From positions 1 to 39,738 of the forward strand of contig JAJDBS010000225.1 in NCBI GenBank assembly GCA_029261235.1: a DNA stretch of 39,738 bases, written 5' to 3'. This stretch comes from Nitrospirales bacterium. Lineage in GTDB: Bacteria > Nitrospirota > Nitrospiria > Nitrospirales > UBA8639. This document shows positions 3,046-38,000 of this stretch, one piece after another. The translations under genes and the position numbers were made by a program. A model generated the notes under the pieces. The model was not told where the DNA came from. It saw only the letters and a list, made by a program, of their open reading frames with translations, and did not search any database. Positions within the stretch are counted from its first letter, which is position 1, and each line of letters starts with the position of its first letter.

Positions 3046-3660
3046 GTTGGCGACCCCTCGGGTTATTGGGGCCAGATACACCTCTAATCTTCCCTCGGTG
3101 TTGTGGGCCTGTCAAAAAGATATAACATTAACAATCAGTTATGAATTTTTCATTGCATTTTACGAAATGAGTCGTGTCGTCAAGGTATCCTATGCAGGAA
3201 AGGTTCGTTGAGGTAAATGGAGGTTGTTTTGCTGGAAGGTTGCTAGGGGTAGGCGGCATTATCTTTTCTCAGCGAGGGATCATGTGATGATTTGACTCCA
3301 ATTTGAAATGAATCAGATGGAGTCGTTCTGTTTATTGGTACGTTTTCAGAATGGAGCCTAGAGTGGATGAGGAAGAGTCCTGAATGGCCTCGGCATCAAG
3401 GGTGCGAAGGCAGTATTTCGTGTGTTGTACCTTTATCGTAGAGGTCTGAATCCGGATTTTCGCTCGATTTTTAGCTGAGATTATGAGTAGAGACAACCTC
3501 AATACACTCCTCGCATTTCAATAGTGTTCCAATAAGAGAGACAAACTTTGATTTTCCCTTGCTTGATTGGGGTAGATTGTTGCTAAATAACTGATCATTC
3601 TTCTGATTTCTTTCTGATTGTTGGCGATACTATGTTGTTTGTCTTTCTGTTTAATTCCTC
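3046..3660. other. AT-rich spacer with no recognisable gene
   Basis: About 600 bp between the higA relic and the first copy of the 164-bp element. No open frame with coding character, no clear hairpin and no RNA gene was recognised. Confidence 0.45.
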
Positions 3661-3824
3661 GAGGGTCTATTCCCCGCTGCTTGCGGTGTCAATTCCTCGG
3701 GTGAGAGTGGACAATCATTGGGGACGCATGTGAGGCAACAAGGGACTGCGTTCATGAAGTTAGATGCAAATCATCAAGTGGAACTCTTCTAATACCCCGT
3801 TGCTTAGGGCGGGGTTCTTTATTA
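3661..3824 (+). repeat. 164-bp REP-like element, copy 1
   Basis: This segment recurs at 7247-7410 with the same length and no gaps. By eye about 17 of 164 positions differ, and a central stretch of more than 60 bases (about 3740-3790) is nearly invariant. Each copy has two CTTG-loop motifs in direct orientation: one near the start (CCCGCTGCTTGCGG) and one near the end (CCCCG-TTGCTTAGG-GCGGGG, then TTCTTT). The end motif folds as a hairpin, though its loop is altered in this copy. The core resembles REP-type palindromes mobilised by REP-associated tyrosine transposases, but no such transposase is present. It ends about 110 bp before the beta-barrel gene. Confidence 0.8.
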
Positions 3825-3932
3825 AACGGTTATTTTTTGATTTTTTCTTCGGTTTCAAATGTTTATGATAGGGCCCTGGCGTAACTAATTAAATAGAAAA
3901 ATTGATATCCGATCTTGCTTGAAAGGGTAGAT

Positions 3933-5237
3933 ATGAGTCATTGGAGCGCATTGAGAAAGCTTACTGTGGGTTGTGGGGTTTTGGTGGGGTTGCTCTCAGC
4001 TCATCCAGTCGTCGCTGCGTTGAGTTTGGAAACCTCTTTCAGCGTGACTGGTACGTATACCGATAATTTATTTTTTGCGAATGAGGATGCTGAAGAGGAT
4101 GTTGGAACGCTTTTTGGACCAAATTTGACCCTTTTGTTTGAGAATCCGGATGTTAAGATTGGTGCGACCTATAGTGGGCAAGTCTCTCTTTATGTCAATA
4201 ATTCTCAAGCGAATCGTTACAACCAAAATGCCAATATTATTTTGGATCTTCCATTTTTGACGAAGCAATATCGAGGGTTAACGGTGACGATTGATGAGTC
4301 TATGAGTTTTACCCCTCAGTTAGATGCCTTTTCCCTCACGGAGGCCCAGAATACTTCAAATTCACGGGGCGACGGGGCGGGTGGTGGAACTGGTGGGACA
4401 CAAGGAGTGTTTACTAGCCGATCCAATGCTTTTCTTAACCGGGCCGGTGTGACGCTTGGCTATGCCTGGACCTCTCGGCTGCAAACGTCGCTTGCGTATT
4501 CGAATCAATACCGTCATTTTTTTTCTAATGGCTTCCAGGATTCTTTGCGGCATACGGGAAGCTTTTCGGGTTCGTATCGTGCAACCAAGTACACCACGGT
4601 GACATCGTCGTATTCGTATGGACAAACGGAATTTCTTGGGAAATCGACTCAAGGCACATCTGCTGATCGAATTATTACCCACAGCCCTAGCTTGGGTCTT
4701 ACTCATGCTTTTACGCCGTCATTATCAGGAACGATTTCTGCTGGCGTCTCGTTTGTGAAACAAGTGGGAGCAACTGAGCAGGTGCCTGTGGCTGGTGGCG
4801 GGACTCAGGAGCGAGCAGTTGGTGGAAAATTTATGACAAGCTATATTGGAGGTGTAAATCTGACAAAAACCTTTCAACGTGGGTCCATGGGTGTATCCGC
4901 CAATCAAACAATTGGAAGCGGAGGGGGCTTGGCGTCTCAGGCGACCCGGACTCGAACCATCACCGGGCAAGGGGATTATGCGGTGACCCCTCGCATGAAT
5001 GCATTTGCCTCGGTCGGGTGGGCCCAAAATGATTCGATTGGTGGGAACGCGTTGGACTCGATTACCTACAGAGTCCAGACTGGACTGGTATATTCCTTGA
5101 CGCAATGGCTGTCTGGGAATATCAGCTATTCTCGAATTGATCAACGCTCAAAAGGGACGATTGCGACAGACGTGGTCGTGAATCAAGTGTTTTTGAGTTT
5201 AACCGCAGTGGCAGATCCCTGGTTTTTGATGAGATAG
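3933..5237 (+). CDS. Outer-membrane beta-barrel protein, PEP-CTERM/exopolysaccharide-system type
   Basis: A protein of 434 residues from the ATG at 3933, which is preceded by AAAGGG at a good distance. A TTG at 3915 would add six codons but has no such signal. A signal peptide (MSHWSALRKLTVGCGVLVGL...VVAA) is followed by alternating hydrophobic and polar strands. Repeated short segments (TGTYTDNLFF, IGATYSGQVSLYV, LGYAWTSRLQTSLAYS, GNISYSRID) alternate with Gly/Ser/Thr-rich loops, as in outer-membrane barrels. This resembles the PEP-CTERM-associated barrel family found beside exopolysaccharide genes, thought to act in export across the outer membrane. It lies just upstream of the FemAB-like gene on the same strand. 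The family assignment is from general pattern and order, not a search. Confidence 0.72.
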   Translation: MSHWSALRKLTVGCGVLVGLLSAHPVVAALSLETSFSVTGTYTDNLFFANEDAEEDVGTLFGPNLTLLFENPDVKIGATYSGQVSLYVNNSQANRYNQNANIILDLPFLTKQYRGLTVTIDESMSFTPQLDAFSLTEAQNTSNSRGDGAGGGTGGTQGVFTSRSNAFLNRAGVTLGYAWTSRLQTSLAYSNQYRHFFSNGFQDSLRHTGSFSGSYRATKYTTVTSSYSYGQTEFLGKSTQGTSADRIITHSPSLGLTHAFTPSLSGTISAGVSFVKQVGATEQVPVAGGGTQERAVGGKFMTSYIGGVNLTKTFQRGSMGVSANQTIGSGGGLASQATRTRTITGQGDYAVTPRMNAFASVGWAQNDSIGGNALDSITYRVQTGLVYSLTQWLSGNISYSRIDQRSKGTIATDVVVNQVFLSLTAVADPWFLMR

Positions 5238-5418
5238 AAATTCTAATATAGATCAGGCTTGGTCATCTCCGCAGAGGTTTCATCATGCTTTTTTGGTCAA
5301 ATTTACTTAAGTATGATGTTGGCCTTGTCCGATGATATTTTATCGCGAACGCTTTCCTGCTTGAGTTCTCTCTCAATTTTTTTGAACATTTTAGTCGTGG
5401 CGGTGTTTGCGGATCTTG

Positions 5419-6450
5419 ATGGATATTGTCGTCTTTGATGAAACGCGAGATTTCCCCCTATGGGAAGCCTATGTTGCCTCTCATTCGCAGGCGACTAACT
5501 ACCATCAACTTGGCTGGAAAACGGTTATTGAGCGAAGTTTTGGCCATCAGACGCGGTACTTTTTGGCTATGAATGATGGAGTGGTAGTCGGGGTCCTTCC
5601 CTTGGCCATCTTGAAAAGTTGGTTATTTGGTCGGAGTGTCGTGTCCTTGCCTTTTTTGAATTATGGCGGCCTGTTAACTAATGATGAGCAAGCTGAAAAA
5701 GAATTAGTGTCTGCTGCTTCAGAACTTGCGATTGATGAAGGTGCAGGTTCTGTTGAGTTACGCCATTGTGAGGCGCACGGCTTAGGGTTGATCCCCAAGG
5801 AGCACAAAGTCTCGATGTTGTTGCCTTTGGCCTCAGATACGGATACGCAGTGGAAACACCTTGATGCCAAAGTGCGAAATCAAATTCGAAAAGCCGGGAA
5901 ATCCGGGTTGACTGTTCAAATTGGGGGCAAAGAATTTCTCGCTGATTTCTATGCCATGTTTGCCAGAAATATGCGTGATCTTGGCACACCCGTGTATGGA
6001 CGTGTCTTTTTTGAAACGATCCTTGACGTGTTCCCTTTACATACCAGAATTTTTGTTGTGAAACTTCAAGAGACTCCGGTGGCTGCTGGTTTGAGCAGCA
6101 TTTTCAATGAGACGATGGAAGTGCCGTGGGCAGGGTCTTTAGTTGAATATCGTTCCCTGTGTCCGAATATGTTGTTGTATTGGGAGGCCATACAATTTGG
6201 GATTCAACATGGCATGAAAGTATTTGACTTTGGGCGCAGTACACCTGGTGAGGGCACGTATCGATTTAAGACGCAATGGGGAGCCAAGGCTGCTCCGCTT
6301 GTTTGGGAATATTGGATGAAAGATGGTGGGCCACTACCGAATATCAGCCCTACCAATGCGAAGTTTGCGTTAGCCATAAAGTTGTGGAAAAAGCTTCCCT
6401 TGTCGGTGGCCAATCTGATTGGTCCGCCCATTGTTCGATCCCTTCCCTAA
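5419..6450 (+). CDS. FemAB-like GNAT-fold protein, PEP-CTERM-system associated
   Basis: A protein of about 343 residues with FemAB-type features: an N-terminal FPLWEAYVASHSQATNYHQL region, a central KVRNQIRKAGKSGL segment, NMRDLGTPVYG, and a C-terminal GMKVFDFGRSTPGEGTYRFK block. This matches the FemAB-related family that co-occurs with PEP-CTERM/exosortase loci. FemAB proteins transfer amino acids from aminoacyl-tRNA in cell-wall synthesis; the substrate of the exopolysaccharide-associated branch is not established. The start is uncertain: the ATG at 5419 lacks a good ribosome site and a TTG at 5407 is also open. It follows the barrel gene by about 180 bp. A decayed paralogue lies at 34545-34986. 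Confidence 0.82.
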   Translation: MDIVVFDETRDFPLWEAYVASHSQATNYHQLGWKTVIERSFGHQTRYFLAMNDGVVVGVLPLAILKSWLFGRSVVSLPFLNYGGLLTNDEQAEKELVSAASELAIDEGAGSVELRHCEAHGLGLIPKEHKVSMLLPLASDTDTQWKHLDAKVRNQIRKAGKSGLTVQIGGKEFLADFYAMFARNMRDLGTPVYGRVFFETILDVFPLHTRIFVVKLQETPVAAGLSSIFNETMEVPWAGSLVEYRSLCPNMLLYWEAIQFGIQHGMKVFDFGRSTPGEGTYRFKTQWGAKAAPLVWEYWMKDGGPLPNISPTNAKFALAIKLWKKLPLSVANLIGPPIVRSLP

Positions 6451-7246
6451 TAATTCAGAGGTACTGTAGTTGATTTGAGATGGACGTCTGGCGCTTAGAT
6501 CTCAGCCTTGCTCGACACCTTCATGTTTGGGATATCTCATGAATTTTTGTTATCCCAGGCATCCATTGAGAGAGAGTTATCGTTATTCGAATAATTAAAT
6601 ATAGCCATTGATCATATAAATAACTGAATCTACTCTATATTACAGATACTTATTTGATCAAATTACTATAAAGGTACAGAGAGGCATGGGTTATCTTCCC
6701 ATCGCCATGATAATAGTTGTCATGTCTTTTTTCTGAATCAGATATCATTGTGAGCAACTATTCGAATTGAAAATTTAAGCTTCTGAATTTTGGGACCGAA
6801 GGAATGAATCTATAGAATTGGGTGTTAGGATCAGGGCTCTACTTTTTTCATGATTAAAGCATTTCCCCAAAATGACAAAACCAGGAGGATTTTCGCATTC
6901 CAATTTTTGACGTCCGCTGATTTCCAATAGCTTGAGCCTGAAATCATCTACATCAATACGCTATATAGAATTCTGAAATTAACCCTCTTAAAAGAAATGA
7001 AAATTTCTGATTGTTTGGTGAAACAGAATGCGATTTTGTGAACGGAGCGTTTGCGTGGAAATATCAGCTTTCCACAGAATGCCAAGCAATTAGATTCTCC
7101 AGTCTTTTTATCCTATCAACGTTATGAGTAGTTGGTTTTCTCACCTTGAATGATTGTCGATGGCCTATTCTATTCTTTCATCAGACATTGTTAATGCCAG
7201 AGCATTGTTAATTTTTTTATTAGCCTTTATCAGATTTAAATCCTTT
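6451..7246. other. AT-rich spacer with no recognisable gene
   Basis: About 800 bp between the FemAB-like gene and the second 164-bp element. It is strongly AT-rich, with no open frame of coding character, RNA gene or convincing terminator. The length suggests that the glycosyltransferase gene beyond it has its own promoter. Confidence 0.45.
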
Positions 7247-7410
7247 GAGGGTCTATTCCCTGCTGCTTGCGGCGTCAATTACTCTCGTGAGCGGGGACAA
7301 GCATAGGGGAAGTCTGTGAAGCAACGAGGGACTGCGTTCATGAAGTTAGATGCAAATCATCAAGTGGAACTCTTCTGATACCCCGTTGCTTGCGGCGGGG
7401 TTCTTTATTA
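7247..7410 (+). repeat. 164-bp REP-like element, copy 2
   Basis: Second copy of the element at 3661-3824, the same length and about 90 percent identical by eye. Here the terminal hairpin is intact: CCCCGTTG, loop CTTG, CGGCGGGG, followed by TTCTTTATTA. Like copy 1, it lies close to a plus-strand exopolysaccharide-type gene, ending 87 bp before the GTG start of the double glycosyltransferase. Confidence 0.8.
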
Positions 7411-7496: not shown

Positions 7497-9899
7497 GTGA
7501 ATCCGACTGAGACAATAATTTTTGAATTGATTTTTTGGGGAAATGCTTTTCTCTTTTTTTATGTGGTTGTCGTATACCCTCTTCTTTCCATTGCCCTAGG
7601 AAAGGTTTTCCCGAAACCACGTATTTTGGATGAACAGTACCATCCAACAGTGACTCTTATCATTTCAGCTTATAATGAAGAACAAGACATTAGAAAGAAG
7701 TTAGAAAATGCTTTAGCCTTATCATATCCCAAGGATAAATTGGACATTGTCGTAATTTCCGATGCTTCCAGTGATGCGACTGATAATATAGTCCTCGAAT
7801 TCTCCAGCCAAGGGGTGAAGCTTCATCGAATGGAACAGCGAGGTGGAAAGACCGTTGGACTTAATGCCGTTGTTCCCGAGGTTCAAAGTGAAATTGTCGT
7901 TTTTTCAGATGCGAATGCTTTTTATAAACATGATGCCATTGAAAAATTTGTCCGAAATTTTTCTGATCCCCAAGTAGGGTGTGTCACTGGTGATTCCCGA
8001 TATGTTGATGTCAAGAAATCGAGTTCTGGTTCGAATGAAAAGATGTATTGGGATTATGATCGAGAGTTGAAGGTGGGGGAGAGCAGCTTTGGATCTATGG
8101 TTGGCTCAGATGGAGCCATATTCGCTATCAGGAAATCCTTATATTCGGATTTAGGTCCGCAAGACATTAACGATTTTGTGTTGCCTCTTCGTATCGTGGG
8201 ACAAGGGTTTCGGTGTGTGTTCGAAAAGGAAGCGATTTGTGAGGAAGAGAGTACGGTTCAAATGGCTCAGGAATTTTCAAGAAAAGTTCGAGTGGTGAAT
8301 CGAAGTTGGAATGCCTTATGGAATATGCAATACCTATTAAACCCTTTTGCCCATGGATGGTTTGCTGTTCAATTGTGGTCGCATAAGGTGTTGAGATGGT
8401 TGTCTCCTCTTTTCCTTCTTTTCGTTTTCTGCTCCTCTCTGGCTTTGTCGTTTTCCTCGAGTTTCTTTTTGATTGTTTTCGCTTGCCAGTTACTTGTCTA
8501 TGGTCTTGGGTTGGTCGCTTGGAAGATTGAATCTTTCAGCCGCGCCCATTGGATTTTCTCTGCCTGTGCATATCTTCTCTCAATTAACGTGGCCTCGGTT
8601 TTAGGTGTGAGTAAGAGCTTGAGAGGGCAGTCGATAATTGTTTGGGAGCCAATCCGAGCCTCAACTTCCAGTGTGAATATCGAATCGAAAAGTCCTACAT
8701 TCATAAGCGGATTTATCTTTATGTGCAGTTTGCTCCTGCTGGGAACCTGGAATTTCCCTATCTGGAGTTTTTGGATTGGGACTGTCTTGCTCTTTCATGT
8801 GTATGCGGGGTATCCCCTTCTTTTAAACCTTCTTGCCTCTGTTAAAAAGAAACCGTGGGCCCAATCATCAATTTCTCCATCAGTGACTTTGCTTGTTGTG
8901 GCGTATAACGAAGAGGAAGTGTTGAGGCAAAAGATAGAAAATTGCTTAGCCCTGGAATATCCCAAATCGCAATTGTCTATCTTGGTCTGTTCTGATGGAT
9001 CCACTGATCGAACCACAGAAATTTTAAAGGAATATCAAGAACAATTATCAATAATCTGTTTCCCTGAACGGTCAGGGAAATCTACGGTGATTGAAAAAGT
9101 GGTTGCTACCATTACTTCCGAAATTATTGTTTTTTCAGATGCGAATACCTTTCTGGAAATGGATGCGATTGAGAAGTTGGTGAGAAATTTTTCCGACGAT
9201 TCTGTCGGGGCTGTGAGTGGGAAAGTCTCTCTTGTTTCTCATGCGACGGTTCATGGTGAGCCAGAGCATTGGTACTATCGATACGAATGGCAGATCCATA
9301 CACTTGAATCACAGATTCATTCACAAGTTGGAGTGGATGGAGCTATGTATGCCATACGAAGAGAATGTTTTCCTAACAACGTAGGCACTGTGGTAAATGA
9401 TGATTTTTATATTGGGTTTCAGATTGCGTTACAAGGAATGCGTGTCGTATTTGATCCTGATGCACAAGGTCGTGAATCGTCAGAAGGAACGTTGGAAAGT
9501 GAGTTTTTTCGTAAGGTTCGAATTACTTCTCTTGGGATTAAATCATTTTTAGATTTTGATTTTTGGCCAAAGCTGTCGCAGCCGTTTCTCCTTTTTCAAT
9601 TAGTTTCTCATAAAATACTCAGATGGTTTACACCGTTTTTCATGGGGAGCGTGTTCCTGTCTTCAATTATGTTGATTGATGTGCCATTTTTCAGGGCTAT
9701 GTTCCTGATCCAATTTATTTTTTATGGATATGCCATTCTTGGGTATTTTTTGAAATCTAAGGCAGTTTGGCTTGCACTTCCTATGTATTTTTGTCTGGTT
9801 AATCTTGCGGCTGGAGTTGGTGTCGTGAAGGGATTTTTATTTGAACAGACAAAAACTTGGGATAGGATTTCATCGCGTCGCTGGGCCTCACAACAATAA
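7497..9899 (+). CDS. Tandem double GT2 glycosyltransferase, membrane-bound
   Basis: An 800-residue protein built as an internal duplication. Each half has a short N-terminal membrane segment ending in a YPLL motif, a GT-A family 2 catalytic domain, and C-terminal membrane helices. Half one has ISAYNEEQDIRKKLENALAL, an SDAN acidic motif near residue 138, NDFVLPLRIVGQGF, and RKVRVVNRSW. Half two (from about residue 405) has VAYNEEEVLRQKIENCLAL, SDAN near 548, VNDDFYIGFQIALQGM, and RKVRITS. Such proteins use sugar nucleotides at the inner face of the cytoplasmic membrane for polysaccharide or lipid-linked glycan assembly. Half two keeps an NDD acidic pair where half one has only ND-F, so the halves may differ in activity. 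The GTG at 7497 follows GAGG. The substrate is unknown. Confidence 0.85.
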   Translation: MNPTETIIFELIFWGNAFLFFYVVVVYPLLSIALGKVFPKPRILDEQYHPTVTLIISAYNEEQDIRKKLENALALSYPKDKLDIVVISDASSDATDNIVLEFSSQGVKLHRMEQRGGKTVGLNAVVPEVQSEIVVFSDANAFYKHDAIEKFVRNFSDPQVGCVTGDSRYVDVKKSSSGSNEKMYWDYDRELKVGESSFGSMVGSDGAIFAIRKSLYSDLGPQDINDFVLPLRIVGQGFRCVFEKEAICEEESTVQMAQEFSRKVRVVNRSWNALWNMQYLLNPFAHGWFAVQLWSHKVLRWLSPLFLLFVFCSSLALSFSSSFFLIVFACQLLVYGLGLVAWKIESFSRAHWIFSACAYLLSINVASVLGVSKSLRGQSIIVWEPIRASTSSVNIESKSPTFISGFIFMCSLLLLGTWNFPIWSFWIGTVLLFHVYAGYPLLLNLLASVKKKPWAQSSISPSVTLLVVAYNEEEVLRQKIENCLALEYPKSQLSILVCSDGSTDRTTEILKEYQEQLSIICFPERSGKSTVIEKVVATITSEIIVFSDANTFLEMDAIEKLVRNFSDDSVGAVSGKVSLVSHATVHGEPEHWYYRYEWQIHTLESQIHSQVGVDGAMYAIRRECFPNNVGTVVNDDFYIGFQIALQGMRVVFDPDAQGRESSEGTLESEFFRKVRITSLGIKSFLDFDFWPKLSQPFLLFQLVSHKILRWFTPFFMGSVFLSSIMLIDVPFFRAMFLIQFIFYGYAILGYFLKSKAVWLALPMYFCLVNLAAGVGVVKGFLFEQTKTWDRISSRRWASQQ

Positions 9900-12400: not shown

Positions 12401-12460
12401 TGAATAGACAGCCGATATGTCACGAGCCGAATTGATTTTTTACTCAAGAGGAAATTGAAC

Positions 12461-15400
12461 ATGGAGTTCTCTACGCGAGATCTTGAACGCTTTGCCGAAT
12501 GGTCAGGAGACCGTAATCCACTTCATCTAGATTCAACATTTGCGGGACGAACATCTTTTGGGCGACCGATTACTCATGGAATGCTGACCGTAATCGAAGC
12601 ACTGCGTTCTGTAAGCAAGGAATCCTACCAGTCGTTCAAGAGTTTGGAAATCGAGTTTCATGGTGCGGTTTATCCAAATGAGAGTTATCAGGTTAAATCG
12701 GCTTTCGAAAAAAAACAGCTTTCTGTCGAGGTACTCGGTGGCGTCAAGCCCGCACTAATCATTCGTGCTGATTTTGGAAAGGAAAACTCCTCACAGCAGG
12801 ATAGGGATCTTTCCTGGGTTTCTGACTTGAAGCTCGGCCAAGATTTAGCAGCGGGCCAAAGTCGGAAGTTTCCCGCCAATCGCAAATTCGAAGAATTTCG
12901 GAATAAATTTGAACTTGTAGGCGTCTACTCAACGGAGCCTCCACCTGACGATTACATAACTCAAGGACATCTTTCCCCGATTGTCATAAAAGTTTTTGGC
13001 TTCTGCAGCTATCTCGTCGGAATGGAAGTTCCGGGGTTGAGATCACTATTCACCCGGCTTCGTTTGCAGTTCCATGAAACAACCGTGGCTTCGAAAGACC
13101 TTGTGTATCGCGTCAATACGTCTCGCTTCGACCGAGAGTTTCGGATACTGGATACGGAATTAGAAATTGCCACTCCAGACGGTATCCTGGTCGCAACTGG
13201 TGATGTGCGTAGTTATATCCCCTTCAGCCCTACTGTCACAGATCTGGCCGAACTCGGTTCTCGGTTAGAACTTGGGAACCGACAGCATGAAGGGAAAGTC
13301 GCTCTTGTCTGTGGAGGAAGCCGTGGGCTCGGTGCTGATCTAGCATCAGCTCTAGCACTTTCAGGATACCATGTCTATGCAAGTTACCGGAACTCTCGGG
13401 AAGATGCTGAAGAGCTTGCTGATAGAATTACCAAGCAGGGAGCTCATTTGGAGCTTCTTCAAGGTGACGTTGGTGACCCGAACTGGTGCTCCGCAGCAAA
13501 AAAAACCATACTTGAACGACATGGTCGCCTCGACCTTCTTATCCTTAATGCTTGTTCTCCTCCCGGATCCTTGCGTATCAGTAGTGATTCTGCAGAAAAA
13601 TTTGAAGAGTACATTTTCCGAAACCTTCGCCTAGTGCAGCTTCCCCTGGCAGAGTTTCTCCCTACACTTAATTCTCATCAAGGGAGTGTCGTTGCGATAT
13701 CATCTTCGGCCGTCGAAAATCCCCCAGCAGATTGGGGTCACTATGTTGCCTTAAAGCAGGCAATGGAAGGAATAATTCAATCTGCTTCACGAGAATTTGC
13801 CAATCTTTTCTGTCTCATTGTTCGGCCACCCAAGCTTCAAACGGCTTGGAATGACAGCCCAACTCATGTGATTGGTGCTATTCCGACAGATCTAATCGCA
13901 GTGCACACCGCCAATCGTCTTGCTAAAAACATCACGCGTGGTCAGGTGGAGGTCCTTTCAAATTTTCCTGTCCTCGATCTACCGACTTTGACTACATCGG
14001 AGGATAAGAAAGCCGATTTCAATATCGTTCTTTCAGCCAGTTTTACAGCGGAACCCTTTCTGCCTGCACTACGTTTCTGGTTTTATGAACTCGGCCTGCC
14101 TGCCTCCGTGGAAATTTCTCCTTACGGTCAGGTTCTACAAGAACTTATCAATCCTGGGAGTGCTCTCTCCTCTAATTCGAGTGGTATAAGCGTTGTCATG
14201 CTTCGAATACGCGATTGGTTACGAGAACTGTCCCACGATGCAATGAAGACGAGTGAAGGCCTGAGAACCTTTCTTGGAAATACCTCGGAAGAATTTGTAC
14301 GAGCAATGCGATCTCACAGGGCACATGCTTCTGTTGACACAATTTTTGTTCTTTGCCCTTCGATTAATAATACATTGAAGGAAGAAGACAGGGAGCTGCT
14401 TAACGCAGAATCGAATTTACTCCAAGAGCTCACCACTATTCCTGGCCTACAAATTATTGCCGCTAAAGATTTCAATGATCGTTATGATGTGAACCCTGAT
14501 GAAATTAATGATCCATTGCGTGAGGAAATCGCTCATATTCCCTACAAAGATGCATATATCTATACACTAGCTACCCTTTTAATGCGAAGCATTTACCGGA
14601 AATTTTTGCCAGTACGAAAGGTGGTTGTGGTGGACTGTGACAATACCCTTTGGGCCGGTGTCGTTGGTGAGTTAGGTGTTGAAGGTATCAAATTCGATCT
14701 TGTCCATAAAGAACTTCATGCAACGCTTACTAGATTAGGTAAGAGTGGGATGCTTATTTGCCTCTGTAGCAAAAATGAGGAGGTTGACGTTTGGGAAGTT
14801 TTTGAAAGCCGGAAAGATTTCGGATTAAGACGAGATCAAATTGTTGCTTCTATGATTAACTGGAATCCGAAATCAGAAAATATCCGCTTGCTTGCCTCAC
14901 GATTGAATGTGGGTATAGATAGTTTTATTTTTATTGATGATAATCCAGTCGAATGTGCCGAGGTACGTTCCGGTTGTCCTGAAGTTCTTGTTCTCGAGTG
15001 GCCTCAGGAGGACAACGCTGCCACGCGTCTCTTGCAGCATACCTGGGAATTTGATCTCCTCGAGGGTACCAAAGAGGATTCAAAAAGGACCAAGCTGTAT
15101 CGTGACGAATTCCGACGACAAGAGGCCAAAGACGATACATTTACCCTGCGAGAATTTATCGAAAGTCTTCAGTTACAAGTCGATATTATCCCTCTGTCTA
15201 AAGAAGATGTCCCTAGGGCTTCCCAACTTACATTGCGGACAAACCAATTTAATTTCACCACACGTCGCCGTAAGGAAAATGATTTGAAATCGCTGTTTGA
15301 AAGCGATTCGTATGTCGGTTCTACAATACAAGTTCGTGATCGGTTTGGCGACTATGGGTTGGTCGGTCTTGTCATTGCTGAAAAGCAGGGAGCGTTCCTA

Positions 15401-18400
15401 CTTGTTGATACGTTTCTCCTCAGTTGCAGAGTTTTAGGCCGTGGTGTTGAACACGAGATGGCTGCCGAACTGGGACGAAGAGCCATGGAATTGAAAAGAG
15501 AGACCGTAAGGTTTCTAATAATACCGACAGAGAAGAATACACCTGCGCGCTCATTTTTAGAATCTATCTGTTCTTCAGAACAGAAAAAAGTGTTTGAAGG
15601 ATCTTTTCAATGCGATATCCCGGCAGCTGAACTATCAAATCTTAAATTTGAGCCTGCTGAGCAGAAAGAAGACGATTCTCAAAAGCAACAAAAGGAAAAA
15701 CAATCTACGCCGGACAAGGTCCAGGTAATAGACGGAAAACAACAGCGGTCACGAGAAAGACAGATCGTTCGTGCAGCCTCAGAGCTGTCATCCATTAAAC
15801 AACTTAATACTGCGATCGGTGGTAGTACCGATAATCAAAGCTTAAGCCCGCTTGTCGCCCATTCAGACGAACAATCAGACGATATTGCTCAGCAAATATA
15901 TCAAACCTTTTCTGCAGCGTTAAACATCCCCATAAGCAACCTCAAAGAAATTGACCAACTTGAACAGCTTGGTTGTAGTTCCTTTAAAATTGTTGAAATC
16001 ACGGTTTCTCTAACAGACAAATATTCGTGGCTACCCAGTACTCTGTTGTTTGAGCATCGATCAATTTCGGAGATCATACAAAATGTGACTGATCTTCTAG
16101 GTAAGACAGATGAAAGGGAGCCAGCCTCGACTTCAGAAAAAACAATAACTACCGTGGCAGATCCAGGGAATAAGAATTCTCAGAGTGACATAGCCGTAAT
16201 AGGAATGAACTTGCGGTGTGGAGGTGCAAACTCACCTGATGAATTGTGGGAGCTATTGAGTTCTGGAGGTACTTCGGTAGGTCCGGCTCCGCCGGACCGG
16301 GGTTACCCAGATAATGTTCAAAATTGGGCCGCTTGGGTGGATGGTGTGGACTCTTTTGATGCTAATTTTTTCGGCATATCTCCTCGTGAAGCCGAGTATA
16401 TGGACCCTCAGCTACGATTGTTTCTTGAAACAGCCTGGTCTGCACTTGAAGATGGCGCATGTATGGGGGATAGAAGTGATGTGGACACGGGTGTCTATGT
16501 GGGTGTTCTATACGGAGACTATGTGTTTCATGCGAATTGCCTTGCAGGTAAAAAAGACCAGCCCTATCGGTGTTGGGAAGGATTTAGCTTAGCCAACCGC
16601 CTGTCGCAATTTCTCGGATTTCGTGGTCCCAGTCTCGCTGTCAACACAGCCTGCTCGTCTTCGGGAACGGCATTGCATATCGCCTGTAAAGCTCTAGCAG
16701 CAGGTGAATGTACAACTGCTATTGTTGGAGGCGTCAACCTTATTCTTGATGCCGATCGATTGTCTCAACTAGGACGATTGGGAATTATATCGCCCACAGG
16801 TAAATGCAGTCCCTTTGGAAATGAGGCGAATGGAACGATTATAGGAGAAGGTGTGGGAGTCGTTGTGCTTAGGCCATTGCATGAGGCACAACAACGCGGC
16901 GACCATATTTATGGCGTGATCAAGGGAACCGCTCTTAGCACGGGTGCGGGTACCGTTGGTTTTACCGCGCCGAACCCAACCGCTCAGGCGGAGGCAATAC
17001 GAAAGAGTTTGATCGTAGCAAATGTTGATCCACGTACGATTACTATGGTGGAGGCTCATGGGACTGGGACCGCACTTGGTGACCCCATCGAGGTCCGAGG
17101 TCTGACTCTGGCGTACACTGATAAGAAATTGTGGGATAAGAAAATTGATGGAACGCACACATGTAAATTGTCCGCAATCAAACCGAATATAGGTCACCTG
17201 GAGGCTGGCGCCGGGATCATGGGGCTCATCAAGGTGCTGCTTCAATTTGACCGAGGTTATCTTTTGCCGACGATCACCTCTGAACAACCCAATTCTCAAA
17301 TTCCGTTTGAAACCCTTCCATTCAAGATTCAACGAAAGCTCGAGCCATGGGATCGAGCCATAATGAAAGTTGCTGGAGTACCCACTACATTTCCAAGGCG
17401 TGCAGGATTGAGTTCTTTTGGCGTTGGTGGTGCAAATGCCCATCTCATTTTAGAAGAGCCACCGGAGGCATCTTCATCAGACAATAAGCTTTTTGTCCGA
17501 CCTTTTCATATTCTGACCCTTAGTGCTCGCAACAAAGAAAGCCTAGATAACCAAGTTCTTAGGGTTCAGGAATTTCTGGGATCAAATCAAGATCTCGCCC
17601 TCGAAGATATAAGTTATACCGCCAATATTGGTCGTAAGCATTTTGAGCATCGTCTGGCATTTTTGGGAAGTAATCAAACAAAATTGATGGGTTCACTCGA
17701 GGACTATGTTGCTGGAGAAGACCCTATCGGGTGCGTTCAAGGAAGGAGTCCCAAATCCACTGGGCCAACAAAGATTGCTTTCCTTTTCACTGGTCAAGGG
17801 GCGCAATATTTGGACATGGGAAAAGCACTATATAAGACCCATCCAGTGTTTAGAGAAACGCTTGATCAATGCGTGGAAAATTTGAAGCCGTGTATGAATT
17901 GCTCAATTCTTGACGTGATGTTTGCTGAAAAAGAGAGTTCGGAGGCCCTCCTTCTGAATCAGACTGGCTATACCCAACCTGCCCTGTTTGTCATCGAATA
18001 TTCTCTAGCAAAGTTATGGGAAAGTTGGGGAATTCACCCGGATATCGTTATAGGACACAGTGTAGGTGAAATTGCTGCCCTATGCGTTGCGGGCGGGGTT
18101 TCACTTGAGGATGGGCTCAAATTAACCGCAGCAAGGGGCCAACTTATGCAAGCCTTACCTTCCGGAGGGGGTATGGCTTCTGTCCGAGCAGGAGAGGCCG
18201 AGGTAAAGAAGGCCATATTGGGCTATGAGGACCGTGTGTCCATCGCGGGGTTCAACAGTCCGGAACAGACGGTGATTTCAGGAGATGGCGATGCGATTAA
18301 CGAAATTTTAGCCCAATTGGAAGTTAATGGGATCAAAACCAAAGCCTTGTCTGTTTCCCATGCATTTCATTCGCATTTGATGGATCCCATGATTGATAAG

Positions 18401-21400
18401 TTTAAAGAAGTCGTTAAGGAAATTAACTTCTCCCTTCCAAAAATACCATTTGTCAGTTGCGTAAAAGGCACGCTGGTCACTGATGAGATAAAGGATTCCG
18501 AATATTGGGTACAGCAAGTGCGCAACCCGGTCCGGTTTACTGAAGGGATGAAGAGGTTAGAAGAACAATCTGTCACGACATTCCTTGAGGTTGGTCCTCA
18601 GCCAGTGCTTTTAGGGATGGGAAAGCATTGCTTGCCAGATGAAGAAGTTGATTGGTTACCTTCTCTGAGGGGGGGTGCCGACGAGTGGCAAACTGTTCTG
18701 GGAAGTCTGGCTAAACTTTATGTGAGGGGTGTTTCAATTGATTGGAAGGGATTTGATGCCCCTTATAGTTACAAAATTGTATCCATTCCCAATTACTCGT
18801 TCAGACGCAAACAATTTTGGATTGATATTCCCAGTGAGCAGACTTTAGGCATAAACAAGGCTTTACCCGCACGTTCCGCATTAGATGAATTATTAAGCAG
18901 CCAAGATGAATCCGGGTTTTCAGATTATGTTCGGAATGCCATAAAACTCTCGACGGAAGAGGCCATGGTTCTTCCAAAGGTTTTCAAAGCCCTATCTTTG
19001 GAGGCGGAACGGGAGCAAGATGAGGTTCAAATTGGAGAAAAGCTGTATCAGGTTGTTTGGAAAGAAAAGTTACAGGGAATAACCGAGAATTCAAAAAAGG
19101 CCGGTGGGATTTGGATTATTCTCATGGATCAAAATGGATTCGGCGAGATACTGACAAAGGTGCTTGCAAACAACGGCACAGAATACACGTGTGTTTGGCG
19201 GGATACTCATTTTAAGCAAAAGGATGCCGACAATTTCTTTATAGATCCTCAGCAAGCGGAACATTTTGAAAAATTGTGGCAATCTATTTACGCTCAAGAT
19301 AAGCCAATCAACGGTGTCATCCAACTTTGGGCTCTCGATACTCCGCTGTCGAGTGAATTGAATGCCGAAGACTTTGATTCTTACCAAAAAAATACTACTG
19401 AAAGTGCGCTCCACCTAGTTCAAACCCTTGCGAAGCGTTCGGAAGCAAACAAACCAGCCATATGGTTGATTACTCGGGATGCAGTGAAGACAGGGGAGGA
19501 TGTATCCAACGAAGTTGTATCGGTCGCGCAGACCCCCCTTTGGGGGTTTGCTAGGACAATTTCGCTTGAACACCATGATCTCTGGGGGGGGATACTGGAC
19601 CTTTCGTCAAATGGGGATCTCACTGACCAAGCGGAAATGCTTTACACTGCGCTTTCCAATACCAGTACGGAAGATCAACTGGCATTGAGAGGTGGAAAGC
19701 CGTTCGTGCCTCGGCTCATAAAGCACAATGGCAAAAGAGTCAGCGACGTGGTCCTTGATGACAAGGGGAGCTATTTAATCACTGGTGGTTTAGGTGCCTT
19801 GGGTCTTCATACCGCCGGATGGTTAATCAAAAAAGGAGCCAAAAATTTAATTTTGACCAGTCGGCGTGGAATGGAGTCACCTGACGCAAAAGAGATCGTC
19901 GTCAGGCTGGAGAAGCAAGGTGCCAATGTTAAGGTGATTGCTGCTGATATTTGTTGTACAGAGGACGTAGACAAGCTTTTTACCGAAATCAAAAATTCGA
20001 AGCTATTCTTACGAGGTATTGTTCATGCTGCAGGAGTAGATGCTCTTGTACCCGTGGCTGAAATGAGTGTGCACGAGCTTCGAGACTTACTGGCTCCTAA
20101 GATGAAAGGGGCCTGGTTACTGCACAAACATACTCTTGATGTAGATCTTGATATGTTTATTTGTTTTTCCTCTATTTCCTCCATCTGGGGTTCGAGTGGA
20201 CGCGCTCATTATGGCGCGGCTAATGCTTTTCTTGATGGTCTTGCTTACTACAGACAGAGCCTTGAGTTGCCTGCCCTTAGTGTTAACTGGGGGCCATGGA
20301 AAGGTGGAGGTATGGCCAACGAAGAGCAGCTCCAACTTTTGGAGAGGATGGGTAATCACGGCCTTGACCCAGATGTGGCAGTGTTAGCGCTTGAGTATCT
20401 GCTTCATAATGCAGACGCGCAGGGCATCGTTGCCGATATTGATTGGGCTCAATTTCGCTCCGTTTTTGAGGCGCGCAAAGCACGTCCCTTGTTTTCAGAG
20501 TTAGAGGGAATTCCGAGAGGGGATACTTCCGATCTTGTAAATGAATGTCCACGATGGATTACCCTACTCCGGGAAAAATCTACAGATCAGCATTCGGAAT
20601 TGCTTACTAAACTTTTACAAAAAGAAGTGGCTAAAACTCTTGGGTTTGAAAACCCCGAAGAAGTTCGACTGGACCAAGGCTTATTCGACATTGGAATGGA
20701 CTCACTGATGGCCATTGAGCTTGCTACCCAATTAAATAAATGTCTTGGAATCCGAATATCGGCAACCGATTTCAGTCAGCCAAACTTACGCATCTTGTCA
20801 GAGCATTTCTTGAATCAGTTGAATTTGGATGTGGCACTGAGTCCTGGAGGGAAAAGTAAAGGTGAAGGCTGTGTTTCTCGGACAGAGGTAAAAGGAAATG
20901 GGCTTCAGTCCAAGTGGATGGAACAAATAAAGGAAGCTCCTTCTGAAGAAAGGGCAATAATTCTGGTGGAGTTGTTGCGCAAAGAGGTAGCAAAAACCCT
21001 CGGACTTGAAGATCCGGAAGAAGTTCGCTTAGATCGAAGCTTATTCGAAATTGGAATGGATTCTCTTATGGCGGTCGAACTTGCCAATGGTCTTAAAAAG
21101 CGTTTTGGAATTCAAATATCTGCTTCTGATTTTAGCCTTCCACACTTGGAGGCCATTGCAGCCCATCTACTTGGACAGCTACCCGTTGCTAAAGAACATC
21201 AGACTGGGGTTATTCATTTTAGCCCTGACCTGGAATCAGAGACATTTGAGTACCATCGAAAAGCCTTCCCAGGAAGGAGAACCGATTGGGTAGAGCCGCG
21301 TTGGCGATGGATGTTTTTAGAATCCGCCAAAAGATTAAATATAGACCCTATGATTTGGCTCTATCGGGACTCAGATTCAATCGTTTCACATTGCGGTGCT

Positions 21401-22276
21401 ATCCCAGTGAAGATAAAAATAGGTGAGAGAGAATGTAGTACTTCATGGTTTGCGGAATCAATGACCCTTGAATCTCACAGATCCAAAGGTGTCGGAGGGA
21501 TGATTTTAATGCAGTCGAAAGAGGATGTCCCTTTTAATTTGTCCCTCGGTCAGGAAGAATTCATGCGAAACATGCAAATAAAGCTTGGATGGACACTTAT
21601 TGGTCCTTTAGGGGTATATTTCTATCCGTTACGGCCTCAGAATATTCTTCAGGGCAAGCTACCGAAAGGTCCGGTTTCTTGGGGGGCTTCTGCAGCACTT
21701 TCCCTCACCACGGAAATGAAGCGTGTTATAGGACGCCCTTCCCATAAATGGAAACCAGAGATCTGCTCAATCAACCGTTTTGACGGTGAACACGATGAGC
21801 TGTGGAAATCTGTCAGTAAAGAATTGACATGTACAGTTGTTCGAGATGCATCTTTTCTAAACTGGAAATATGTGGATCAACCAGGGCAGAACTTTAAAAA
21901 ACTTGAAATCCGAAAAGAAGGAGAAGTCCTAGCGCTGGCGATCATTTCCATTGAAGAACCATCGGATGCATACCCCTATCGGAGAGCTTTTCTCGTGGAT
22001 TTGATTGTGAAGCCTTCTGATTCTGAAGCAGTTTGGGCTGTTCTTGATGCTGTTCGAGCCCATTCAATCCATGAGGAAGCTGACGCGATTATTTGTTATC
22101 TCTCGTGCCCTGCACTAAAGAATCAACTTGTAAGTTTTGGTTTCCGCTCCAGAGAGGCTACTCGATTCTTAATCGCCTCTACTGAGGGGGTAGAAGAGTC
22201 GGAGGTCGAGCTACTCTCGTCTATGGACAACTGGTATCTTACGATGGGCGATTCTGACATCGACCGACCTTGGTAG
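12461..22276 (+). CDS. Giant type I polyketide synthase: MaoC-hotdog-SDR-FkbH-ACP-KS-AT-KR-ACP-ACP-GNAT
   Basis: About 3271 residues from the ATG at 12461 (AGAGGA eight bases upstream). Domains in order: MaoC-type dehydratase with SGDRNPLHLD (about 3-110); a second hot-dog-like region (about 150-270); SDR with GGSRGLG near 284 and YVALK near 428; FkbH-like HAD domain with DCDNTLWAG near 725 and RTNQFNFTTRR; ACP with GCSS near 1173; KS with TACSSSG near 1398, EAHGTGT and NIGHLEAG; AT with GHSVGE near 1865 and HAFHSH near 1967, the malonyl signature; KR with GGLGALG near 2442 and a Ser-Tyr-Asn set; two ACPs with GMDSLM near 2747 and 2867; and a GNAT-like region (about 2917-3257). FkbH domains load glyceryl units from 1,3-bisphosphoglycerate onto ACPs. 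No thioesterase is present; release may involve the GNAT-like end (inference). All visible KS, AT and KR catalytic motifs look intact. Confidence 0.92.
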   Translation: MEFSTRDLERFAEWSGDRNPLHLDSTFAGRTSFGRPITHGMLTVIEALRSVSKESYQSFKSLEIEFHGAVYPNESYQVKSAFEKKQLSVEVLGGVKPALIIRADFGKENSSQQDRDLSWVSDLKLGQDLAAGQSRKFPANRKFEEFRNKFELVGVYSTEPPPDDYITQGHLSPIVIKVFGFCSYLVGMEVPGLRSLFTRLRLQFHETTVASKDLVYRVNTSRFDREFRILDTELEIATPDGILVATGDVRSYIPFSPTVTDLAELGSRLELGNRQHEGKVALVCGGSRGLGADLASALALSGYHVYASYRNSREDAEELADRITKQGAHLELLQGDVGDPNWCSAAKKTILERHGRLDLLILNACSPPGSLRISSDSAEKFEEYIFRNLRLVQLPLAEFLPTLNSHQGSVVAISSSAVENPPADWGHYVALKQAMEGIIQSASREFANLFCLIVRPPKLQTAWNDSPTHVIGAIPTDLIAVHTANRLAKNITRGQVEVLSNFPVLDLPTLTTSEDKKADFNIVLSASFTAEPFLPALRFWFYELGLPASVEISPYGQVLQELINPGSALSSNSSGISVVMLRIRDWLRELSHDAMKTSEGLRTFLGNTSEEFVRAMRSHRAHASVDTIFVLCPSINNTLKEEDRELLNAESNLLQELTTIPGLQIIAAKDFNDRYDVNPDEINDPLREEIAHIPYKDAYIYTLATLLMRSIYRKFLPVRKVVVVDCDNTLWAGVVGELGVEGIKFDLVHKELHATLTRLGKSGMLICLCSKNEEVDVWEVFESRKDFGLRRDQIVASMINWNPKSENIRLLASRLNVGIDSFIFIDDNPVECAEVRSGCPEVLVLEWPQEDNAATRLLQHTWEFDLLEGTKEDSKRTKLYRDEFRRQEAKDDTFTLREFIESLQLQVDIIPLSKEDVPRASQLTLRTNQFNFTTRRRKENDLKSLFESDSYVGSTIQVRDRFGDYGLVGLVIAEKQGAFLLVDTFLLSCRVLGRGVEHEMAAELGRRAMELKRETVRFLIIPTEKNTPARSFLESICSSEQKKVFEGSFQCDIPAAELSNLKFEPAEQKEDDSQKQQKEKQSTPDKVQVIDGKQQRSRERQIVRAASELSSIKQLNTAIGGSTDNQSLSPLVAHSDEQSDDIAQQIYQTFSAALNIPISNLKEIDQLEQLGCSSFKIVEITVSLTDKYSWLPSTLLFEHRSISEIIQNVTDLLGKTDEREPASTSEKTITTVADPGNKNSQSDIAVIGMNLRCGGANSPDELWELLSSGGTSVGPAPPDRGYPDNVQNWAAWVDGVDSFDANFFGISPREAEYMDPQLRLFLETAWSALEDGACMGDRSDVDTGVYVGVLYGDYVFHANCLAGKKDQPYRCWEGFSLANRLSQFLGFRGPSLAVNTACSSSGTALHIACKALAAGECTTAIVGGVNLILDADRLSQLGRLGIISPTGKCSPFGNEANGTIIGEGVGVVVLRPLHEAQQRGDHIYGVIKGTALSTGAGTVGFTAPNPTAQAEAIRKSLIVANVDPRTITMVEAHGTGTALGDPIEVRGLTLAYTDKKLWDKKIDGTHTCKLSAIKPNIGHLEAGAGIMGLIKVLLQFDRGYLLPTITSEQPNSQIPFETLPFKIQRKLEPWDRAIMKVAGVPTTFPRRAGLSSFGVGGANAHLILEEPPEASSSDNKLFVRPFHILTLSARNKESLDNQVLRVQEFLGSNQDLALEDISYTANIGRKHFEHRLAFLGSNQTKLMGSLEDYVAGEDPIGCVQGRSPKSTGPTKIAFLFTGQGAQYLDMGKALYKTHPVFRETLDQCVENLKPCMNCSILDVMFAEKESSEALLLNQTGYTQPALFVIEYSLAKLWESWGIHPDIVIGHSVGEIAALCVAGGVSLEDGLKLTAARGQLMQALPSGGGMASVRAGEAEVKKAILGYEDRVSIAGFNSPEQTVISGDGDAINEILAQLEVNGIKTKALSVSHAFHSHLMDPMIDKFKEVVKEINFSLPKIPFVSCVKGTLVTDEIKDSEYWVQQVRNPVRFTEGMKRLEEQSVTTFLEVGPQPVLLGMGKHCLPDEEVDWLPSLRGGADEWQTVLGSLAKLYVRGVSIDWKGFDAPYSYKIVSIPNYSFRRKQFWIDIPSEQTLGINKALPARSALDELLSSQDESGFSDYVRNAIKLSTEEAMVLPKVFKALSLEAEREQDEVQIGEKLYQVVWKEKLQGITENSKKAGGIWIILMDQNGFGEILTKVLANNGTEYTCVWRDTHFKQKDADNFFIDPQQAEHFEKLWQSIYAQDKPINGVIQLWALDTPLSSELNAEDFDSYQKNTTESALHLVQTLAKRSEANKPAIWLITRDAVKTGEDVSNEVVSVAQTPLWGFARTISLEHHDLWGGILDLSSNGDLTDQAEMLYTALSNTSTEDQLALRGGKPFVPRLIKHNGKRVSDVVLDDKGSYLITGGLGALGLHTAGWLIKKGAKNLILTSRRGMESPDAKEIVVRLEKQGANVKVIAADICCTEDVDKLFTEIKNSKLFLRGIVHAAGVDALVPVAEMSVHELRDLLAPKMKGAWLLHKHTLDVDLDMFICFSSISSIWGSSGRAHYGAANAFLDGLAYYRQSLELPALSVNWGPWKGGGMANEEQLQLLERMGNHGLDPDVAVLALEYLLHNADAQGIVADIDWAQFRSVFEARKARPLFSELEGIPRGDTSDLVNECPRWITLLREKSTDQHSELLTKLLQKEVAKTLGFENPEEVRLDQGLFDIGMDSLMAIELATQLNKCLGIRISATDFSQPNLRILSEHFLNQLNLDVALSPGGKSKGEGCVSRTEVKGNGLQSKWMEQIKEAPSEERAIILVELLRKEVAKTLGLEDPEEVRLDRSLFEIGMDSLMAVELANGLKKRFGIQISASDFSLPHLEAIAAHLLGQLPVAKEHQTGVIHFSPDLESETFEYHRKAFPGRRTDWVEPRWRWMFLESAKRLNIDPMIWLYRDSDSIVSHCGAIPVKIKIGERECSTSWFAESMTLESHRSKGVGGMILMQSKEDVPFNLSLGQEEFMRNMQIKLGWTLIGPLGVYFYPLRPQNILQGKLPKGPVSWGASAALSLTTEMKRVIGRPSHKWKPEICSINRFDGEHDELWKSVSKELTCTVVRDASFLNWKYVDQPGQNFKKLEIRKEGEVLALAIISIEEPSDAYPYRRAFLVDLIVKPSDSEAVWAVLDAVRAHSIHEEADAIICYLSCPALKNQLVSFGFRSREATRFLIASTEGVEESEVELLSSMDNWYLTMGDSDIDRPW
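20585..21185 (+). repeat. Tandemly duplicated ACP-coding segment in the polyketide synthase
   Basis: Two ACP domains lie exactly 360 bases apart, measured between their phosphopantetheine serine codons (near 20701 and 21061). They remain similar at protein and DNA level: both have KEVAKTLG, a PEEVRLD segment and GMDSLMA. The spacing and similarity indicate an internal duplication more recent than the split from the first ACP near 15977, which has a GCSS motif instead. Confidence 0.75.
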
Positions 22277-34544: not shown

Positions 34545-34986
34545 CATTATTTCGGCAACATGAGGGACCTTGGACTTAGATTGTCAAAGCCCCTATCTTA
34601 TTGAGTTATGATATGGCAAAGCGATTACGTCAATTGTTCTAATTACTCTGATTAGTTCAAAAGCATAAGTAGCCGTGGCTAACAGAAAGGGAGGGGCGAA
34701 TGAGCACTATCTTCTTGGGTTCTATTTTTACTCATGCCCTTTACGTAACAGAATATTTATTGTGAAATCTCAAGACGTGCCGGTGGTGGCCGGTTTGAAC
34801 AGATTATTCAAGGAGGCAATGAATGGCAGTGGGCTGGATCTTTCGTTATATCTCGTTCCATGTTTTTCTAGTATGGTGCTTTATAGGGAAGTTAATAAAG
34901 ACCCCCGCTGCAAGCAACAGGGTATTAGAAGAGTGCCAATTGGTGATTTGCGTATGACTTCTGGTACGCGGACCTTAACATTATGA
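34545..34986 (+). pseudogene. Decayed second copy of the FemAB-like gene (C-terminal half)
   Basis: Several blocks match the intact FemAB-like gene at 5419-6450 in order but in shifted frames. NMRDLG is readable near 34565-34580. RIFIVKSQDVPVVAGL matches RIFVVKLQETPVAAGL, and WAGS (near 34834) matches WAGSLVEYRS. The DNA is also similar, for example around ccggtgg and gtgggc-gg-tctttcgtt. Frame changes and stops show it is broken. An open frame of 103 codons (34675-34986) spans part of it but is only a fragment. It lies about 100 bp upstream of the NRPS on the same strand. Confidence 0.78.
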
Positions 34987-35090
34987 CTCTTATGAATGAA
35001 CTCGATCACGCAAATAATTCGCGCCGCACGCAGCGGAGAATATACCGGCAAGGGATTTAATAATTACAGGGAAGAAAGTATACAGAAATT

Positions 35091-38000
35091 ATGGCTGATC
35101 ATAAATCATTCAGTTGCATTATTTTTGGAGAAGGTGTGCTTCCTATACAGTGCGCAGAAATCTTATTGGAAAGAAGACATACAATTTGTGCCATTATTTC
35201 TGCGGATCCCTCGTTACATACGTGGGGTGATGACCGAAATATCCCATATATGATCCCGAGAACGGGTCCTTTGGAGAATAAAACAACAGTTTCACGACAT
35301 GAAACGTATTCTCAAGCACGAAACGATCTAGCCAATTTCGTACAGAATTTCTCCTTCGATTACCTCTTTTGTATCATTAATTATTACACCCTCCCGGAAG
35401 CGTTATTTCATGTTCCCAAGAAAATGGTCATTAACTATCATGATGCTCTTTTACCAACATATGGCGGTTTTTATGTAACGTCGTGGGCAATTATGAATGG
35501 GGAGAAATCACACGGAGTGGATTGGCATGCAATGAATGATGTCATTGACGGTGGAGATATACTTGTCCAATCCCCACTCGAAATTAGACAAGATGAGACA
35601 GCATACTCCCTAAATGCCAAGAGTTTCGATGCTGCTATCCAGTCCTTCAAAGATCTTACAGACGACCTTGCTTTCGGACGAGTAAAGAAGAAAAAACAAA
35701 ACCCTGAAGAACGAACGTTCTATCCCTTATACCAAAGACCAAATGCAGGGGGCATTATTTCTTGGAAGCATAAGGCAGAAGAAATTGATCGTTTGGTACG
35801 TGCATTGAATTTTGGTCATTACTCGAATCCGCTTGGGTTGCCATTGTGTAAAGTTGGGAACGAATTCGTCATCCTAAATAAACTAGAAAGAGTTCAAGCT
35901 ATATCGAATAAGGATTCAGGAACCATAATCAAGATAGCCTCGGACTTCATTGAAGTTGCTGCTGAGGATTTTCCGGTAAAAATCCAACAGATTTCCGACA
36001 TTTTTGGCCAACCGTTGAAAATCCAGGAATTCGTTGAAACGTTCGGACTTTGTGAGGGAGATCGATTCCCGGAAGTCGAGACGGGTATCCTAGATCGCAT
36101 TTTCAAGCGAGTCTCTGCATGTGCCAAAGATGAGTATTATTGGGTAACGCGATTGCAGACAATCCAACCGATTTTCGTTCCCTTTGCTGAATCGAAAAAC
36201 GGAAACTCGGAGCATCCGAAGCAAGAATGCTGGACATTTGCTCTTCCTGAAAAAGTTATGACAAATCTGGATGGAGTAATTGACCCATCCAATAGGCTGT
36301 CTTTTTTCCTCTCTTCCTTCGGAGTGTACCTATCCCGAATAACCGGACTTACTTGCTTTGACCTTGGATTTAACAATAAGGATGGATTAGCAGAGCTCAT
36401 TGAATTAGACAACTATTTCGAAACAGTTGTCCCTTTAAAATTCGAACTGGATTCCAACCCATCTTTCACCGATCTCGTTGCAGATATACGAGATCAAATA
36501 CAATTTCTAAGGGGGAAGTTGACCTATGCGAAGCATATTTTCCCGCGATTCGAAAAATTACGTTCGTTGGGAGGCAAGAATCTATACCCTGTAGTGATTG
36601 AAATGGTGGAAGGTCTTGATGGTGATACAGCCTTATCTTCTCGTGCTCCGCTGGTACTTGTTGTTCCCAGTAAATTAGGAGAACTCCAATGGAGATATGA
36701 CCCTCAGGTCGTTCAAAATGAAAAAATCATTGAGTTGACGAGCCAATTTACAAATTTCCTCTCAGGAATTCTCGGTGATCGAGATCAACCCGTTTCAGAA
36801 ATTCCTATTTTAGATGCAAAATCACTCAATAAAATATTAGTAGAATTTAACACAACAAAACAAGATTTCCCCAAGGCTGAAAGTCTTCAGCAACTATTCG
36901 AAAGTCAAGTGGAGCGTACGCCCGAAAATATCGCACTGGTCTACGAGAAGAAGCAGTTGACCTATCATGAACTAAATCAACGCTCTAATCGCTTAGCGAA
37001 CTTCCTTCGCCGTTTAGATTTGGGGCCAGAACCCCTCGTGGGTGTATATCTGGAGCGCTCGCTGGAAATGAGCGTGGCGCTTCTTGGAGTATTGAAGGCT
37101 GGTGCGGCGTATGTCCCACTTGATCCGGGGTATCCCAAAGAGAGATTGAAATTCATGATTGAAGATGCCCGACTTCCAGTGCTACTGACCCAAAAAGATT
37201 TGGTCGACAGTATCCCAAAAAATCATGCTTGCCAAATTGTTGATCTTGATTCTGACTGGGAGAGGATAGAAAAAGAGGCGTCCCAAAACCTAGCTTACAA
37301 CGGAACTTTACAAACTACGGCATACATGATTTATACCTCAGGGTCTTCTGGAAAACCAAAAGGAGTATTAGTACCTCATTCTGCAATTTGCAATCACATG
37401 CTTTGGATGAACACCAGATTTTCTATTGGCGATGCAGATATTGTTTTTCAAAAAACGCCTTTCAGCTTTGATGCTTCCGTTTGGGAATTTTATGCTCCAA
37501 TATTGACAGGTGCTCAGCTCATTATGGCACGTCCTGGTGGCCACCAGGATAGTGCTTATTTAGCAAAAACCATCGCAGAAAAGAACATAACTATTCTTCA
37601 AGTTGTACCGTCTATGCTTCAACTCCTTGTAGAAAATCCACATTTTAGTGACTGTAAAAGCCTTCGCATTGTTTTTTGTGGGGGGGAGCCTTTATCTATT
37701 GACCTATGCACACGTTTCTTCTCCGCTCTTCCCGAGACAGATTTGTGCAATCTTTATGGGCCTACTGAGGCCTGTATAGACGCCACTTATTGGCTTTGTC
37801 CTCGCGATATCAAGGAAATTTTCATAGGACAACCTGTTTCAAATGCGCAAATTTATATATTGGATGCTCACCTTAACCCCGTGCCGGTAAGCGTACCAGG
37901 AGAAATTCATATTGCTGGTGGTGGTTTGGCAAAAGGCTATTTAAACCGCAAGGATTTGACAGACCAAAAGTTTATCGATAATCCATTTAACGAAAAACAA

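Follow-up and report, generated by a model that had tools for sequence, protein, structure and literature searches.

Repeats upstream of two exopolysaccharide genes in a Nitrospirales bacterium as probable deletion derivatives of an IS200-type insertion sequence

The window, by which we mean the whole stretch of 39,738 nucleotides analysed here (contig JAJDBS010000225.1 of a Nitrospirales bacterium), carries two plus-strand genes that are each preceded by a copy of a short repeat. The gene after the first copy encodes, by a weak match, an outer-membrane protein associated with PEP-CTERM/EPS systems, and the gene after the second a family 2 glycosyltransferase; a FemAB gene of the XrtA/PEP-CTERM system lies between the two. 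A preliminary description of the same sequence had called the two exopolysaccharide (EPS) genes, which is a fair label given these matches, and had placed the repeats upstream of them, where they indeed end about 90 bp before the respective open reading frames. The features that matter for what follows are these:

3650 to 3655, plus strand: target-like hexamer TTTAAT, directly 5′ of copy 1
3656 to 3823, plus strand: copy 1, a probable 168-bp internal-deletion derivative of an IS200-type element
3669 to 3688, plus strand: candidate left-end hairpin region of copy 1, CCCCGCTGCTTGCGGTG, aligned with the left-end (LE) hairpin of full-length parents
3746 to 3791, plus strand: tnpA 3′-end remnant in copy 1, GTAFMKLDANHQVELF, through the stop codon
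3794 to 3823, plus strand: right-end hairpin of copy 1, closing with TTTATT and terminator-like
3915 to 5237, plus strand: PEP-CTERM/EPS-associated outer-membrane protein gene, after copy 1 (weak TIGR03016/EpsL match)
7236 to 7241, plus strand: target-like hexamer TTAAAT, directly 5′ of copy 2
7242 to 7409, plus strand: copy 2, a probable 168-bp internal-deletion derivative with the junction of copy 1
7332 to 7378, plus strand: tnpA 3′-end remnant in copy 2, GTAFMKLDANHQVELF and stop
7380 to 7409, plus strand: right-end hairpin of copy 2, closing with TTTATT and terminator-like
7497 to 9899, plus strand: two-domain family 2 glycosyltransferase gene, after copy 2
34894 to 35054, minus strand: copy 3, a probable 161-bp derivative, diverged and with a different deletion junction

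Copies 1 and 2 lie where the preliminary description had put them. Compared without gaps (3650-3824 vs. 7236-7410, both on the plus strand), they agree at 154 of 175 positions (88%), and the likeness is not a matter of chance because copy 2, used as the query against the 4.17-Mb genome, returns copy 1 at an E value of 5e-59. The two had been given as 164 bp each; they are equal in length, but the element body is 168 bp when bounded by its conserved ends (3656-3823 and 7242-7409), and over this body the identity is 88-89%. Nor are they just a pair. The third copy, on the minus strand, had been missed, and a copy of about 50 bp that consists of the ends only lies outside the window, on another contig (C250:19892-19941). 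A DNA search of the assembly found only these few copies in the organism's own genome. Copy 3 overlaps a mechanically called ORF of 103 amino acids (34675-34986, plus strand), which is probably spurious.

That the copies are unevenly conserved was also borne out: copies 1 and 2 differ at 3 of the last 75 positions and at 18 of the first 100 (Fisher p = 0.005), although the test is a weak one, as it uses a single pair of sequences and a split picked after looking. Neutral decay by itself does not account for this pattern, which gene conversion or a constraint on the right end could underlie.

The preliminary description had proposed a search for further copies in the genome and its relatives. 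We made this search in 59 genomes, that of the window itself plus relatives at the level of genus, family and order, and found matches to the element in 21 of them. In several relatives, about 350 bp intervene between the left 70 bases of the repeat and its right 104 bases. The resulting full-length element, the parent, is about 520 bp long, is found in related Nitrospirales genomes, and has a single reading frame of 147 codons. Its product matches the Pfam family Y1_Tnp (PF01797; E 7e-36) and, over the curated cut-off, the NCBIfam model for IS200/IS605 family transposases (NF033573; E 1e-36), and contains the sequence HVHF, the HUH motif as read from the sequence. The ends of the parent match both ends of the window repeats, and the window copies are 82-92% identical to a parent in the parts that align. 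Full-length parents are present in Nitrospirales bacterium NPIRA02 (G033:C1), of the same family as the source genome, and NPIRA06 (G003:C121), of the same genus; close relatives of the parent transposase are found across many phyla.

Alignment with the parent offers an identity for each part of the repeat. The nearly invariant core of copies 1 and 2 translates in frame to the C-terminus of the transposase and its stop codon (...MKLDANHQVELF and stop); the corresponding reading is ...SYANHQLALF and stop in copy 3 and ...QLYANHQLALF and stop in the parent. The core is thus the 3′ end of tnpA through the stop codon, and the two motifs that had been described as REP-like are the left-end and right-end hairpins of the insertion sequence. 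Copies 1 and 2 each carry two similar motifs in the same orientation, as reported, but not all have the CTTG loop that had been given for them: copy 1 has CTTA in its right-hand loop. The right-end hairpins fold better than shuffled sequences (z = -2.3 for copy 1 and -2.4 for copy 2), and those at the left end are clearer in the parent than in the window copies, where they are weak or decayed. Outside the known copies, sequences matching the hairpin pattern with one mismatch form no hairpin and look like chance.

The boundaries of the element are sharp. The right end stops after TTTATT, past both ends the sequence varies from copy to copy (right ends from other phyla included), and a TTNAAT-like hexamer lies 5′ of nearly all well-bounded copies, with few exceptions. 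Members of the IS200/IS605 family enter the DNA on the 3′ side of a short sequence that is always the same, and do not duplicate the target (PMC7290912); a constant left flank together with sharp ends is the pattern expected of them. An exact empty site at base resolution did not turn up: the copy 1 region gave partial matches at most, and the joined flanks of a copy in a related genome (L056 in G005) matched only their own source.

About 350 bp of tnpA are deleted internally in the window copies. Copies 1 and 2 have one and the same junction, and the junction of copy 3 retains more of the start of the gene; at 168 and 161 bp, the copies are too short for a transposase. Other derivatives show further junctions (loci L034, L035 and L042), almost no remaining tnpA (L039, L056 and L043) or, on C250, none, the left end there running straight into the right end so that the two hairpins are merged into a single one. 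The core, which the preliminary description took to be part of a maintained unit, is kept, cut or lost among derivatives of the same element. The junction of copies 1 and 2 is seen again in a copy truncated on the right, which three genomes of the genus share at one orthologous position (L036, L038 and L192 in G009, G016 and G018); the three are 92-94% identical there over about 1.7 kb. That it might be a different element was considered and rejected, given the shared junction and the right truncation. Because this copy is orthologous in the three genomes, the derivative of the copy 1/2 type is older than the present species and predates the split of the three.

We prefer the view, with a probability of about 0.95, that the repeats come from an IS200-type insertion sequence with a single gene and are non-autonomous, internally deleted copies of it (PATE/MITE type). 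This view draws on what the comparison shows: the parentage of the copies, the structure of their deletions, the conservation of the ends and of a target-like flank, and the absence of the element at homologous gene positions (below). The parent has a hairpin at its left end and another at its right end, with a gene between them that codes for a Y1 HUH transposase (TnpA); a deletion of about 350 bp inside tnpA has left both ends and the last codons. In the IS200/IS605 family, TnpA recognizes the hairpins of the single-stranded ends; the element is cut out in single-stranded form and joined in 3′ of a short target, which is not duplicated. Since TnpA recognizes the end hairpins, copies that keep both ends would be movable in trans, here presumably by a TnpA that the genome no longer has or that falls outside the incomplete assembly. 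The parent transposase had no match at E 1e-10 in the organism's own assembly (about 83% complete), and DNA and protein searches of that assembly found no autonomous copy of the element; a tnpA partner could be missing from an assembly of this completeness. With the copies diverged and no autonomous partner in the assembly, their current mobility is doubtful. Their location upstream of EPS genes would be incidental.

The preliminary description had offered two readings, non-autonomous mobile elements and shared leader or regulatory units, and it is the former that is borne out, as IS200 derivatives, while the latter is unsupported. On the latter reading, both units would be a common leader, such as an attenuator or antitermination site, through which the two EPS genes are co-ordinated. 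In its favour are the common strand of copies 1 and 2, their similar distance of about 90 bp from two genes of related function, the terminator-like right end of both (a hairpin followed by T-rich sequence) and the unusual conservation of their right parts. The genes themselves speak against it. Homologues of the first gene (3915-5237) are present in nine other genomes of the genus, and in none of these does the element occur in the upstream sequence covered, up to 1.5 kb; for the second (7497-9899), a search of the 19 other genomes of the genus gave nothing at E 1e-100. Copy 3, with its different junction, faces away from the plus-strand gene at 35091, and no gene follows closely downstream of it. 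Copies in relatives adjoin varied ORFs (called mechanically) in varied orientation and at varied distance, the right end with its TTTATT recurs in insertion sequence copies across phyla, and a search of the window with Rfam 15 gave no match above the gathering score. A common leader for the two genes is therefore highly improbable.

A less demanding proposal is that the insertions were co-opted, with the terminator-like right end insulating each gene from upstream read-through but without shared control. The hairpins on the plus strand are directed toward each gene, and the stretch that separates copy 1 from the gene after it is conserved in the nearest homologous locus (in G005) and may hold a native promoter; against this, terminator-like sites are not rare in the region (6 found vs. 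4.7 expected in shuffles). An effect of the elements on read-through is possible, and co-option of this kind is unlikely. That both insertions have become domesticated, as a matched pair of insulators or terminators with an influence on how the two EPS genes are transcribed, is very unlikely; if true, it would also account for the better conservation of the right parts.

REP/BIME sequences are hairpin DNA moved by an enzyme of the Y1 type, and the elements could in principle be of this kind, moved by a REP-associated (RAYT) transposase. The CTTG-loop hairpins in direct orientation fit such an origin, as does the presence of Y1-domain proteins in the genome; there are only two of these, in frames of 243 and 336 amino acids, which by length and motif read as the REP-associated type. 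However, the parent, at full length, belongs to the IS200 type and encodes a short transposase of its own, and neither of the contigs that carry the two Y1 proteins, which are longer (L004 on C72 and L005 on C209), contains a match to the hairpin when up to one mismatch is allowed. Mobilization by a RAYT is thus hardly credible, and the REP-like character that had been noted holds only by way of the transposase superfamily.

As deletion derivatives of an IS200-type element, the repeats have close counterparts. Their parent is like the IS200 group of the IS200/IS605 family in its single tnpA, its HVHF motif, the hairpins at both ends and the target-like sequence at its 5′ side; the window copies differ in lacking most of tnpA and in being non-autonomous. 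Palindrome-associated transposable elements (PATEs) have been described in Haloquadratum walsbyi (PMC3119063) and Halanaerobium (PMC7290912). These too have IS605-type ends and near-terminal palindromes, are too short for a transposase and were made by deletion of the core, whereas the present copies have a Nitrospirales host, a parent with tnpA only (no tnpB) and a very low copy number. The ends-only copy on C250 resembles the terminal-only PATEs of Haloquadratum, and a PATE-like element that retains a gene remnant has been reported in Halanaerobium (PMC7290912). The MITEs derived from IS200/IS605 elements are likewise non-autonomous deletion derivatives with neither inverted terminal repeats nor target duplication (PMC3852290), but those described are archaeal, 341-570 bp long and mostly of higher copy number (PMC3852290), whereas the window copies are bacterial, shorter (168 and 161 bp) and few. 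From REP/BIME sequences with their RAYT, the copies differ in having both ends and a gene remnant of a classical IS200-type element, and no RAYT link was found. Every stage of decay seen here has a described counterpart, and the case is an ordinary one. What looked like a paired regulatory unit resolves to a transposon remnant, and its conserved core to the end of a transposase gene; the series, which begins with full-length elements, passes through deletions of several sizes and ends in a single hairpin, provides a clear Nitrospirales example of staged IS200-type decay.

The nearest homologue of the outer-membrane protein locus (G005) also indicates what lay there apart from the insertion. 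Upstream of the gene, similarity reaches about 3832, shortly beyond the end of the element at 3823, there is no element in G005, and the similarity does not clearly resume beyond the other side of the element. Because the similarity reaches about the insertion point, the ancestral upstream region would lie between copy 1 and the gene. The interval 3832-3915 is conserved with G005 (L158), including ATAGGnCCCTGGnGT, and the native promoter of the gene may lie within it.

The glycosyltransferase gene contains a direct repeat of 77 nt (7890-7966 and 9120-9196; 77% identity), and the two family 2 domains of its 800-residue product may have come from a tandem duplication. Two large proteins are also encoded near the EPS/PEP-CTERM genes: one of 3273 residues (12455-22276) is polyketide-synthase-like, with KS, AT, KR and carrier domains, and the other, of 1461 residues (35091-39476), has an amino-acid adenylation domain. 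The two possibly belong to one biosynthetic cluster.
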